A stretch of DNA of 37,528 bases from Bacteroidales bacterium (GTDB lineage: Bacteria > Bacteroidota > Bacteroidia > Bacteroidales > FEN-979). Position numbers and translations under genes: made by a program. Within the stretch, counting starts at the first letter, position 1, and each line of letters begins with the position of its first letter. A model generated the notes under the pieces. That model was not told the origin of the DNA. It worked only from the letters and a program-made list of their open reading frames with translations, and did no database searches. This document shows, in pieces, positions 10,913-29,882 of this stretch. Location of the stretch: NCBI GenBank assembly GCA_017882335.1, contig JADGPR010000024.1:1-37528 (forward strand), written 5' to 3'.

Positions 10913-12004
10913 CTATATAACGCCTAACCCATTACGGATATCCCTTATCCTCTCCTCCAGGATCTTATAGTCGTTCGACATCACAAGTCCCGGGAAATTG
11001 CGTGTCATCTCGATGGCATAGAGAAGGTCGAAATGACGCTGGGACATGGAGAAGTAGATCTTTTTTTCCATGAGATAACGTGCAAGGTACTCCTGTTCGG
11101 TTTGCCCGGGTGTAGGAATAAGGATGGCATTTTTTCCCAGTGTTACCAGGTCCATCAGGCTTGAATACCCCGACCGGCAGATCACGATGTGTGAACGCAT
11201 CATAAACTCTTTCATCTTTGCCGTTTCAAGGTGTGAGAATACACGGATCTTATCCGTGAGATCCCACTCTTCCATTGATTCTGTTAGCCCTCTGACAATG
11301 ATTCCGGTCAGTCCTGAGTTTATCAGCTGTTCAAAAACCATCTCCTCAAGTATGGTTCGCTGTGGCTCCGGCCCTGAAAGCGCAACCATGATATCATAAT
11401 CGCAGGGAAGGGGAATATCACGTTGCCCGGCAGGAATCGAAAAACGCGACAAGGTGCCAATATAATGCGTGTTTGCGGGTAACCGGGGTGGATGTGACAG
11501 CTGCCCTGCCAGTCCATAATGCAACTCGAAGTCGGGGATCCAGCACTCATCGAATTTTTCTACCTGGCGATGAATCATCCGGTTGAGCGTTCCCGAAAGA
11601 AAACGGATTGAAGGAGGAAGAATGATCCTGAGCTGGTGTGTTATTATGATGCTGAACCGATCCCGGTTCCAAAGCCCATACCGGTTATCGGAAATGATTA
11701 TAGTGGGATCTTCCAACCGGATCAGCTTTTTAAGGTCTCTTCGCTCAAGGTAATAACTCAAGAGAAGGAAAGGGGAGAGCCCGAGGATTTTTACAAAGAA
11801 TCCCCCCCGTTTTGAATATGTGACCCGGGCCCCTTTCAACCGGATAAACCGGCATTCGGGAAATTCCTTTTTTAGGAAAGCGTAGGGCATGCTGTCGGCG
11901 GCAATAACAACCTCATCTCCAAATTCCATAAATTTACGGATGACCGGAACACACCGTGTTGCATGACCGATTCCCCAATCGAGGGGACACACCAGGACCT
12001 TCAA
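10913..12004 (-). CDS. MurG-like (GT28-type) glycosyltransferase
   Basis: The 363-aa protein opens with MKVLVCPLDWGIGHATR, the glycine/histidine loop at the start of GT-B enzymes, and has a C-terminal donor site ICRSGYSSLMDLVTLGK ... PTPGQTEQEYLA typical of GT28/MurG relatives. No membrane helix is clear, so it is likely a cytoplasmic or peripheral enzyme using a nucleotide sugar; the acceptor is unknown. The start is TTG: no ATG precedes the conserved N-terminus in frame. A -7 element 26 bp upstream agrees with this. It converges with lgt. Confidence 0.8.
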   Translation of the reverse strand: MKVLVCPLDWGIGHATRCVPVIRKFMEFGDEVVIAADSMPYAFLKKEFPECRFIRLKGARVTYSKRGGFFVKILGLSPFLLLSYYLERRDLKKLIRLEDPTIIISDNRYGLWNRDRFSIIITHQLRIILPPSIRFLSGTLNRMIHRQVEKFDECWIPDFELHYGLAGQLSHPPRLPANTHYIGTLSRFSIPAGQRDIPLPCDYDIMVALSGPEPQRTILEEMVFEQLINSGLTGIIVRGLTESMEEWDLTDKIRVFSHLETAKMKEFMMRSHIVICRSGYSSLMDLVTLGKNAILIPTPGQTEQEYLARYLMEKKIYFSMSQRHFDLLYAIEMTRNFPGLVMSNDYKILEERIRDIRNGLGVI

Positions 12005-12037: not shown

Positions 12038-12193
12038 CCGAATATTGAAGGCGTTTACGGATAAATAATTTCAACTTTTCATATTACTTTTTCACATTTC
12101 AGCCGATTAATGGTATTTCTTTCAGGTTTTCCGGTTTTCTGTGGTTATCTAAAATAGTTGCAAGTTGAGAGGCTGTCTCAAAAAGTAAAAAGC

Positions 12194-12206
12194 ACCGCAA
12201 AGACGC
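12194..12206 (+). repeat. Left arm of 13-bp inverted repeat around the GxxExxY gene
   Basis: ACCGCAAAGACGC is an exact reverse complement of 12680-12692. Similar words occur at 29785-29882 and 33531-33556. Confidence 0.85.
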
Positions 12207-12242
12207 AAAAAACATCTCTTTTAATATTACCTATTTATTTAA

Positions 12243-12269
12243 AAGCTGATGAAGGGTTAAAATCAGCTT
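12243..12269. other. Hairpin upstream of the GxxExxY gene
   Basis: An 8-bp stem AAGCTGAT/ATCAGCTT with an 11-nt loop lies 16 bp before the start codon. It may affect translation; no promoter is recognisable. Confidence 0.35.
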
Positions 12270-12285
12270 AATCAGTTATGGGAAA

Positions 12286-12672
12286 ATGGAAAAACAAGCA
12301 ATTGAATACTGTGCAAAGCAATTAGTTGATGCTGGTTACAGAGTTCATAAAGAACTTGGCCCAGGACTGCTGGAATCGGTTTACCTCTTTTGCTTTATGG
12401 AAGAATTGAATCTCAGAGGGATTAAAGCCAAGCAAGAGGTAGTCCAACCACTTTATTACCGGGGTAGTAAACTGGATAAGGAGTTTCGACTTGATATTCT
12501 TGTTGAAAATGAAATAATTATTGAAATCAAAGCAGTCGAGATACTCTTACCTATCCACATAGCACAGCTAATCTCATATTTAAAATTATCAGATAAAAGG
12601 TTAGGATTTCTAATCAATTTTAATGTACCAGTTTTTAAGGATGGAATCCATCGTTATGTTAATAATTATTAG
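12286..12672 (+). CDS. GxxExxY family protein (PD-(D/E)XK nuclease fold)
   Basis: The 128-aa protein carries the family motif GPGLLESVY (G-x-x-E-x-x-Y) near residue 26 and the nuclease-fold core FRLDILVENEIIIEIKAVE (D ... E-x-K, ~residues 68-85), followed by QLISYLKL and GFLINFNV. These small proteins are assigned to the PDDEXK superfamily, but their biochemical role is not established. The gene sits between MurG-like and dprA genes, framed 80 bp upstream and 8 bp downstream by a 13-bp inverted repeat, which suggests an inserted unit. The catalytic residues look intact. Confidence 0.85.
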   Translation: MEKQAIEYCAKQLVDAGYRVHKELGPGLLESVYLFCFMEELNLRGIKAKQEVVQPLYYRGSKLDKEFRLDILVENEIIIEIKAVEILLPIHIAQLISYLKLSDKRLGFLINFNVPVFKDGIHRYVNNY

Positions 12673-12679
12673 CGTCTTC

Positions 12680-12692
12680 GCGTCTTTGCGGT
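12680..12692 (-). repeat. Right arm of 13-bp inverted repeat
   Basis: GCGTCTTTGCGGT mirrors 12194-12206 exactly; a second partial GCGTCTT word lies just before it at 12672. Confidence 0.85.
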
Positions 12693-12722: not shown

Positions 12723-13826
12723 GTGAGTGAAAAAATGGTTCTTTATCAAATTGCTTTGACACTGGTTCCGGGAATAGGCGATGTTCTTGGGAAAAAACTG
12801 GTAACCTATTGCGGCAGCGCCGAAGCAGTATTCAGGGAAAAGAACAAGTTGTTGGCGAAAATTCCTAGAGTCGGAGGAAAGATTCTAGAGGCCTTGTCAG
12901 GTAAAACGATCCTTGAACGTGCCGCTAAGGAACTGGCCTTCATTGAGAAATTCCGGATCCGCACCTTGTTCTTCCTGGATAAAGATTATCCGTTCCGATT
13001 AAAAAATTGCATTGACAGCCCGGTAATGCTGTATTACAAAGGCACGGCCGACCTGAATGGCTCACGGATCGTCGGCGTTGTGGGAACACGAAATGCCACC
13101 GATTATGGCAGGAGCGCCTGTCACAGGATCATTTCTGACCTTGCACAGGATAAGGTGATAATCGTGAGCGGCCTTGCATATGGGATCGATAGTTGCGCCC
13201 ACCGGGCTGCCCTCGAAAACAACCTCGCGACCATTGGAGTACTGGGTCATGGCCTCGACAGGATCTATCCTTATCAGAATAAGATTCTTGCGGAAAAAAT
13301 GATGAATAATGGCGGACTGTTGACCGAATTCATGAGCGATACCCAGCCCGATCGCGAGAATTTCCCCAAACGGAACCGCATCATTGCAGGCATCTGCGAT
13401 GCCATCCTCGTGGTGGAAGCTGCCGATAAGGGAGGGGCGCTGATCACCGCTGAAATCGGAAATTCTTACAACCGCGATGTTTTTGCCATTCCCGGGAGGA
13501 TCAACGACCCGTATTCGGAAGGAACAAATCGCCTGATCCGGAAAAATATTGCTGCACTGGTGCAATCGGCCGGCGATATCCGCTACCTGATGGGATGGGA
13601 AGAACAAGGTAAAAAGCCGGACGGGTTCCAGAAAAAAATCTTCCTTGAAATGACAACGGATGAGAAAGTACTTGTAGATTACCTGAACAACAATGGTCCT
13701 TCCGGGATCGATGACATCTGCATCCTGTGCCGGCTGAGCATGAGCACTACCTCCGCGGCCCTGCTCAACCTCGAATTCGAAGGAATCGTAAAAAGTATGC
13801 CAGGTAAGATCTATGCCCTGACCTGA
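12723..13826 (+). CDS. dprA: DNA processing protein DprA
   Basis: DprA binds incoming single-stranded DNA in the cytoplasm and loads RecA during natural transformation. The 367-aa protein has an N-terminal helical region, a Rossmann-like core with GTRNATDYGR (~118), SGLAYGIDSCAHR (~147), NGGLLTEF, FPKRNRIIAG and KGGALITAE, and a C-terminal winged-helix domain (~305-367). All are standard for the family and the length is normal. GTG at 12723 or ATG at 12735 could be the start. Whether the organism is competent cannot be judged here. Confidence 0.95.
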   Translation: MSEKMVLYQIALTLVPGIGDVLGKKLVTYCGSAEAVFREKNKLLAKIPRVGGKILEALSGKTILERAAKELAFIEKFRIRTLFFLDKDYPFRLKNCIDSPVMLYYKGTADLNGSRIVGVVGTRNATDYGRSACHRIISDLAQDKVIIVSGLAYGIDSCAHRAALENNLATIGVLGHGLDRIYPYQNKILAEKMMNNGGLLTEFMSDTQPDRENFPKRNRIIAGICDAILVVEAADKGGALITAEIGNSYNRDVFAIPGRINDPYSEGTNRLIRKNIAALVQSAGDIRYLMGWEEQGKKPDGFQKKIFLEMTTDEKVLVDYLNNNGPSGIDDICILCRLSMSTTSAALLNLEFEGIVKSMPGKIYALT

Positions 13827-29717: not shown

Positions 29718-29725
29718 AAAGTTAG
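29718..29725 (-). promoter_or_regulatory. -7 element for sucA-sucB-nadB
   Basis: Minus strand TAACTTTG fits TAnnTTTG. TTTA lies 19 bp upstream within a 9-bp tandem array. Predicted leader ~19 nt. Confidence 0.55.
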
Positions 29726-29759
29726 TAAAGTTCTTAAAGTTTGTAAAGTTTATAAAGTC
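29719..29759. repeat. 9-bp tandem repeat (AAAGTTnnT), ~4.5 units
   Basis: Units AAAGTTAGT, AAAGTTCTT, AAAGTTTGT, AAAGTTTAT, AAAGTC run head to tail. The last unit in the minus direction forms the -7 box of sucA. Confidence 0.8.
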
Positions 29760-29784
29760 GAGGGAAAGCCTGAAACGAATTTAC

Positions 29785-29882
29785 ACCGCAATGTCGCAAA
29801 CCTGCCTGCCGGTAGGCAGGGACGCAAATTTTTGCAAAGAAGTGATTTTGCGCTTTTTTTAGCGCCTTAGCGTCTTGGCGGT
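29785..29882. repeat. ACCGC-flanked inverted segment with nested hairpin
   Basis: ACCGCAATGTCGC (29785-29797) and GCGTCTTGGCGGT (29870-29882) are imperfect inverted arms resembling those around the GxxExxY gene. They enclose a CCTGCCT-loop-AGGCAGG stem (29801-29820) and a GCGCT/AGCGC stem, but no gene. Confidence 0.6.

Follow-up and report, generated by a model that had tools for sequence, protein, structure and literature searches.

The window analysed here is a stretch of 37,528 nucleotides from a Bacteroidales bacterium (contig JADGPR010000024.1, genome G000). Between a murG-like ORF and dprA (12723-13826, + strand, GTG start; PF02481, 261.6 bits) lies a unit (12194-12692) that consists of one PF13366 gene between inverted arms. 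The left arm begins with ACCGCAAAGACGC at 12194-12206 (+ strand), the exact reverse complement of which is found at 12680-12692. This exact 13 nt pairing can be extended to 16 nt at 94% complementarity (left arm 12194-12209, + strand; right arm 12677-12692, - strand). The gene, a member of the GxxExxY family (12286-12672, + strand), encodes a protein of 128 aa, and the 13 nt right arm begins at the eighth base past its stop. Because a second sub-repeat, CGCGAAGACGC, is present at 12672-12682 on the same strand as the right arm (-), the right arm extends to the stop codon. When ORFs of at least 100 aa were listed between the arms, only the GxxExxY gene was found, with no transposase gene. The outer side of the left arm is abutted by GAGGCTGTCTCAAAAAGT (12168-12186, + strand), which resembles an insertion-sequence end and is missing in the related genome G001. 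A preliminary reading of the window made without database searches (the sequence-only reading) had described an exact 13-bp inverted repeat around the GxxExxY gene in a unit of approximately 500 bp, and this held at every coordinate.

The same reading had claimed that similar arms occur elsewhere in the window, and this also held: a palindrome without a gene, its degenerate arms being of the window type, is located at 29785-29882 (no strand assigned), upstream of a sucA-like ORF. Five matches to the 13-mer with up to two mismatches lie in the window, where 0.36 would be expected; all of 100 shuffles gave fewer. Two of the three matches other than the arms are the ends of this palindrome, while the match at 11467-11479 is inside the murG-like ORF and looks coincidental. 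G001 carries a gene-less palindrome at the same place as that at 29785-29882. Beside it in the window, at 29720-29765, are tandem AAAGTTNNT-like repeats that are expanded in G004. Under a general inverted-repeat test the window unit is among the weaker ones (score 27 versus 26 for the best shuffle), and it was not outstanding under an earlier inverted-repeat scoring scheme.

The window protein matches both PF13366 (124.8 bits, cut-off 22) and TIGR04256, the GxxExxY family (131.7 bits, cut-off 35), and it contains both the GxxExxY motif and a D..ExK active site of the PD-(D/E)XK nuclease fold (D70, E80 and K82 retained). Residues G27, E30, Y33, D70, E80, K82 and Q94 are invariant in 30/30 and 45/45 aligned proteins. 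The genes are under purifying selection, with a median dN/dS of 0.09 (range 0.044-0.25) over 50 unsaturated pairs, 16 saturated pairs having been excluded. The structure model (pLDDT 96.3) has as its top fold match 4ic1, the Cas4 protein SSO0001 (VIA Z 9.5, with an rmsd of 3.6 over 99 residues); Foldseek also links the model to SSO0001 (1.0e-3 with chain B and 6.3e-3 with chain G). Further down the list, many PD-(D/E)XK nucleases at Z 6-8 do not discriminate between groups. No solved structure related by sequence to GxxExxY was found up to E 1, and the window protein has no match to Y1_Tnp. Based on the model, the GxxExxY protein is predicted to be a single-domain Cas4-like PD-(D/E)XK nuclease. 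In the open-licence literature searched, passages naming GxxExxY are silent on arms and no GxxExxY-arm link was found, nor were six arm sequences that were looked for.

PF13366 was found in 34 of 61 genomes (G000 and its relatives), giving 87 loci, of which two were cut by contig ends and 85 were scored. To pass the arm test, an inverted repeat pairing the 200 bases ahead of the gene with the region from -25 to +150 around its stop had to beat 100/100 dinucleotide shuffles. Sixty-eight of the 85 units passed and 17 failed, including the own-genome unit L001, which only ties the best shuffle. Neighbour ORFs at the same loci passed in 2/78 cases, of which one, in L044, is itself a second GxxExxY unit. 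A many-phylum sample was then drawn from more than 573 candidate loci by taking the best 80, picked by likeness to one clade; three were cut, and 59 of the 77 scored units beat all 100 shuffles, compared to 1/59 neighbour ORFs. Judged by their record titles, these loci include Bacteroidota, Acidobacteria, Verrucomicrobia, Planctomycetes, Proteobacteria, Chloroflexota, Cyanobacteria and Cloacimonadota, while the sole archaeal locus in the sample (Methanothrix) failed the test. According to the sequence-only reading, arms scattered at random relative to GxxExxY genes would have refuted it, and the counts above show that they are not. The arms accompany the GxxExxY gene across many phyla, and the arms of one unit match each other.

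The arms are built from tandem CRCNRAG-like motifs, and their motif is alike across phyla: an outer ACC(A/G)C followed by NRAG(A/G)C(A/G)CNRAG, oriented inward from either end. Of the 64 units of the relatives with clear arms, 46 have an inward and one an outward motif polarity, and the best motif period was 8, 9 or 10 in 51/60 scored units. Arm likeness increases with protein identity (Mantel rho 0.31, maximum of 500 permutations 0.19), and the window's clade (L004, L045 and L153) has ACCGC(T/A/C)AAG arms in every case. Arms within one unit were more alike than arms between related units in 196/202 comparisons, with the caveat that arms were excised via their own left-right alignment, which biases this count towards within-unit likeness. 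Over 106 units, the median length is 492 bp (quartiles 468-561).

A 16-base arm pattern, CCRCWRAGRCRCWRAG, follows the gene from genome to genome. Among the relatives, 397 copies were found in the 34 genomes with the gene versus five in the 27 without it (reversed control: seven in all). In a 198-genome phylum sample, the corresponding counts were 245 copies in 101 genomes with the gene and eight in 97 without (reversed control: 20); at least one copy was present in 39/101 and 8/97 of these genomes, respectively, with the caveat that species in this sample are not independent. The exact pattern is missing from 62 of the 101 phylum genomes that carry the gene because other arm types exist.

Units are often present in several copies. 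Five PF13366 matches were found in G000, one of them containing an internal stop, and inspection by eye placed each between arms of differing sequence (ACCGCAAAGACGC, ACCGCAGAGGCGCAGAG, AACCGCAAAG, TCTCGCAGATTTTACGC and AACCACATTAGGCACAATAG). Allowing one free base in the 13-mer (ACCGCAAAGNCGC), 12 sites occur in the G000 genome (reversed control: 0), and several of them are gene-less palindromes. Gene-less inward pairs, 47-130 bases apart, are likewise common among the CCRCWRAGRCRCWRAG sites of relatives. Up to 12-13 PF13366 matches are found per genome, fragments and stop-containing genes included. One many-copy family in G001 has approximately 10 copies, several of which have lost the middle of the gene through differing deletions while keeping both ends, and its unit is found in both orientations inside an outer repeat. 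It is thus shown that multi-copy units are near-identical in differing surroundings and that internally deleted and gene-less forms exist.

The dprA junction provides a direct comparison at one orthologous site. Where the window has arms and a GxxExxY gene, G001 (DprA 92% identical) has arms of the window type with no gene and a nested CACAGAG palindrome, G003 has the CACAGAG palindrome only, and G004 has 22 bases in place of the window's 603; the junction of G002 is empty too, as judged by eye. GxxExxY units are therefore present or absent at this site. The sequence-only reading had also named, as a result that would refute it, conservation of the gene at this locus in the absence of arms; this was not seen, as the GxxExxY gene is there in 0/4 congeners.

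Another family has units that share 83-93% DNA identity among G001, G002, G004 and G012, the last of which belongs to another genus, as compared to 67% protein identity between the DprA of G002 and that of G000. In inter-genus pairs, the left end of the likeness falls 44-46 nt before the profile match in 9/9 pairs (within the longer arm of L068 and L069), while the right end falls 44 nt past the stop in six of nine, which is where the right arm has its outer edge, and 54-113 nt past it in the other three. No clear excess of target duplication over shuffled pairings was found at the arms of 106 units for k from 2 to 9; the best counts at k 4-6 were slightly above the shuffles (6 versus ≤5, 4 versus ≤3 and 3 versus ≤2), an excess too weak to claim. 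In the G000/G001 family, units are enclosed by outer inverted repeats (GGCTATATC../..GAATTACCC), and of the four G001 copies with both outer ends, one is flanked by an exact 8-bp duplication, one by a 7/8 duplication and two by none (by eye). Since this many-copy family ends in an outer inverted repeat, in some cases with a duplication, some of the spread occurred via other machinery. The outer element without the gene unit was not found in the four genomes searched. G001 also contains four near-identical gene-less elements (C190, C148, C121 and C20; L140-L143), in which an arm palindrome is located inside outer repeats GGGGTGACTAAAAAGTA.

Few GxxExxY genes were found on carriers: 7/72,556 plasmid records and 0/50,697 phage records at the thresholds used, and one locus in viral contigs. 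These searches used one protein or one clade as the query, so that distant members may be missed. The near-absence from plasmids, phages and viral contigs indicates that GxxExxY is a chromosomal resident. The sequence-only reading had proposed a compact mobile or domesticated unit tied to its repeats, and this is supported; we consider it very likely that this is a mobile unit with matched arms. That reading contained neither the gene-less derivatives nor the spread over phyla, nor the competence-type motif described below.

Outside the left arm, at 12083-12110 (+ strand), is a candidate competence-regulon promoter motif of dprA, ATTACTTTTT-N10-CCGATTAA, which occurs once in the 37.5 kb window (0.00 expected). 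G001, G003 and G004 share it at their dprA junctions, whether the unit is present or not. In its general form, TATTAC[CT]TTTT-N9/10-CCGATTAA, the motif precedes comEC, dprA, ssb, radC, topA, recJ-like and comM-like genes. In G000, G001, G003, G004, G012, G013 and G019, 120 motif sites were found (8-28 each; reversed control: 0), some of those in G001 and G019 being members of a single repeat family. Pfam was run on 55 proteins: 53 encoded by the first ORF behind a motif site, plus DprA and one GxxExxY protein. The families identified were SSB (4), ComEC (4, one each in G000, G003, G004 and G012), RadC (3), topoisomerase (2), DHH (RecJ-like; 2), Mg-chelatase/ComM-like (2), Exo_endo_phos_3 (2), DprA (1), PIF1 (1), sigma-70 region 2 (1) and phosphoribosyltransferase (ComF-like, slightly below cut-off; 1). 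Mobile or odd families were also represented, namely four-helix bundle (7), Y1 transposase (6), ORF6N (3), DUF559 (1), RhuM (1) and GxxExxY (1), and 13 of the 55 proteins had no Pfam family. In 35 cases, the median distance from the motif to the first usable start codon was 26 bases.

Because of their families, the genes behind the motif are read as competence genes. In Riemerella anatipestifer, another member of the Bacteroidota, dprA and YifB-type ComM mutants lose or lower transformation (PMC8459023). It is likely that the motif is a competence-type promoter, an inference from motif and gene content made without expression data; no competence promoter in Bacteroidota was found in the open-licence literature searched. 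A sigma-70-type gene is located behind the motif in G004 (L321:1546-2124, PF04542) and is possibly an autoregulated competence sigma factor. A G000 gene (L346:137-448) resembles it by eye, with no Pfam match up to 1e-5. In 4/4 fully inspected genomes, a secreted-looking protein (..FSDDFTDGDF..) is also encoded behind the motif (L351:3-989, L355:143-1234, L373:1-990 and L381:169-1245); Pfam gave no match for those of L351 and L381.

A matrix was built from the sites before 23 core genes and used with a threshold of 16 bits. As three of these genes are dprA copies, the window's own matrix score is circular. At or above this threshold, 39/85 GxxExxY genes have the motif in sense and none in antisense, compared to 0/81 (sense) and one (antisense) for neighbour ORFs and 0/425 for shuffled sequences; four-helix-bundle genes reach it in 7/29 cases. 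Of the 39 sites, 25 are outside the left arm, six are inside it and eight belong to units without called arms. Motif and gene content thus show that, in this order, many GxxExxY genes are preceded in sense by the promoter-like motif that a set of genes for DNA uptake and single-strand DNA carries. As the window unit is in sense between the dprA motif and dprA, it would be transcribed with dprA. The motif does not by itself entail arms, which were found around 0/13 other motif genes (SSB, RadC and six others), 1/7 Y1 and 0/3 ORF6N genes, compared to 5/7 four-helix-bundle genes and the single DUF559 gene (1/1).

A parallel design is found in genes for four-helix-bundle proteins (PF05635). These are arm-framed in 26/30 cases in the same genomes (L162-L191) and in 14/30 cases in the phylum sample (L286-L315), with a unit length of 498 as compared to 492 for GxxExxY. 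Their arms belong to other motif classes with a period of 7-8 (period 7 in 24/35 scored pairs, versus 8-10 for GxxExxY), and inward tandem CRCNRA is present in 45/64 GxxExxY arm pairs versus 1/40 four-helix-bundle arm pairs. That two unrelated proteins share one design, each with its own site classes, favours a protein-site relation over generic hairpins. No four-helix-bundle genes with inverted repeats were found in the open-licence literature searched. The DUF559 gene under the motif (L358:154-591) is framed by a 36-base inverted repeat and may represent a third family.

We lean towards the view that the GxxExxY unit is a selfish or semi-domesticated cassette of approximately 0.5 kb, REPIN/RAYT-like in nature, that carries a Cas4-like nuclease and is co-expressed with natural competence. 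In this view, the motif would be a competence promoter, and the nuclease would be produced upon entry of single-stranded DNA. A GxxExxY multimer would bind the repeated arm sites, 8-10 bp apart, and the nuclease would cut DNA at these sites or in hairpins that they form. Cutting would lead to the copying of the unit, or of a gene-less arm pair, to a new place, with imported copies favoured; the whole would work like a REPIN/RAYT pair with an unrelated nuclease. The sequence-only reading had suggested that the PD-(D/E)XK protein may act on its flanking repeat. This remains an inference, as no experiment links protein and arm, although on balance we think that the protein does act on the arms. 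Several points count against this explanation: the 106 units share no target duplication at the arms, 17/85 units fail the arm test, 62/101 phylum genomes with the gene are without the exact arm pattern, the many-copy G001 family may, given its outer repeat, have been moved by another transposase, and Y1 transposases under the same motif are mostly without arms (6/7).

Of the rival explanations, the strongest is that gene and arms are passengers, cargo in MITEs moved in trans by ordinary transposases, with the arms no more than favoured hairpins. This remains possible, and it is supported by the outer inverted repeats of the G000/G001 family with an 8-bp duplication in 2/4 two-ended copies (one of them 7/8), by the four-copy gene-less element (C190, C148, C121 and C20), which has its arm palindrome inside different outer repeats, and by the IS-like end that abuts the window unit. 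However, one arm motif is bound to one protein family across many phyla, outer repeats vary between families and genomes without the gene are almost free of arm copies. Alternatively, the arms could pair in the transcript, as in the intervening sequences (IVS) of 23S rRNA, and function in processing or protection, not in movement. The anatomy is the same as that of IVS elements (PMC4990558), and the IVS protein family PF05635 is itself arm-framed here (26/30, and 14/30 in the phylum sample). We consider this RNA-level device unlikely, as arm mismatches in the sense transcript show no G-U-preserving bias (125 versus 136, 109 units) and the arms are fixed-motif arrays of one polarity (46 versus 1 of 64), which is more like protein sites.

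A domesticated competence nuclease, used by the host in uptake to trim or police imported DNA and with arms that are relics or sites for its own control, would fit the competence-type motif, the strong purifying selection, the intact active site and the near-absence from plasmids (7/72,556) and phages (0/50,697). It is nevertheless improbable given that the gene is patchy (34/61 relatives), multi-copy with fragments and stop-containing genes, and missing from the orthologous dprA site in 4/4 congeners. A small, horizontally patchy nuclease gene might also suggest an anti-phage or toxin-antitoxin module. This is very unlikely: PADLOC defence models gave no matching family up to E 1, the gene is single, and it is scarcely found on phages or plasmids.

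The preferred reading, a REPIN/RAYT-like cassette co-expressed with competence, can be extended to the spread of the units. That this spread is coupled to transformation is an inference that we consider possible but less likely than not. A bolder version, to which we give the same weight, is that GxxExxY units would represent a class of selfish element coupled to transformation, the first of its kind to be described. The nuclease, switched on with the uptake machinery, would open the recipient chromosome or process incoming single strands at arm-like sites, so that the half-kilobase unit and its gene-less arm pairs would home between cells without plasmid, phage or transposase. The arm-framed four-helix-bundle and DUF559 genes behind the same motif would then be parallel inventions of the same strategy. 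If units are indeed expressed on DNA entry, transformation would be a route for very small selfish elements that lack transfer genes. GxxExxY is a large protein family without known function, and its own DNA sites, together with a likely competence switch, make that function testable. The motif is also a first handle on the possible control of DNA uptake in this Bacteroidota order. More generally, a design in which matched inverted arrays of motifs specific to the family enclose one small ORF is repeated in two unrelated families and one DUF559 gene.

Several known systems can be compared with the GxxExxY unit. It is not an insertion sequence with a DDE transposase, as there is no transposase gene inside it and no duplication of fixed length at its arms. 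Like MITEs of insertion sequences, the units have internally deleted, gene-less derivatives, but MITE-type fixed target duplications are lacking at the arms and GxxExxY is not a known transposase. A 23S rRNA intervening sequence was likewise rejected for the window, the locus being murG-like/dprA and the protein PF13366. IVS elements carry an ORF between complementary arms (PMC4990558), and those with an S23/four-helix-bundle ORF (PF05635) share with the unit a size of approximately 0.4-0.5 kb, a single ORF and complementary arms, whereas the unit has another protein and another arm class and is found outside rRNA.

With respect to the protein, the Cas4/RecB/lambda-exonuclease branch, labelled by QxxxY, provides the best fold matches, and its D, ExK and QxxxY residues are retained in GxxExxY. 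Unlike Cas4, GxxExxY is a single 128-aa domain, and the window shows neither a helicase nor a CRISPR partner for it. As cysteine is neither invariant nor nearly invariant in any column of the 45-protein alignment, a Cas4-type Fe-S cluster is not expected.

A parallel in organization is provided by REPIN/RAYT systems (REPtrons) and TIRtrons, which are vertical, chromosomal residents (PMC3116915, PMC3733652). RAYTs are HUH/Y1 single-strand transposases, whereas GxxExxY is a PD-(D/E)XK nuclease, so the unit is not a RAYT system in this respect; its arms consist of CRCNRAG in tandem, where REPIN/RAYT systems have GTAG-tagged palindromes, and the units are multi-copy. As in REPIN/RAYT systems and TIRtrons, however, one small nuclease-type gene is flanked by short inverted repeats, and, as in REPIN/RAYT systems, the inverted repeats of GxxExxY units recur as gene-less doublets in extragenic DNA.
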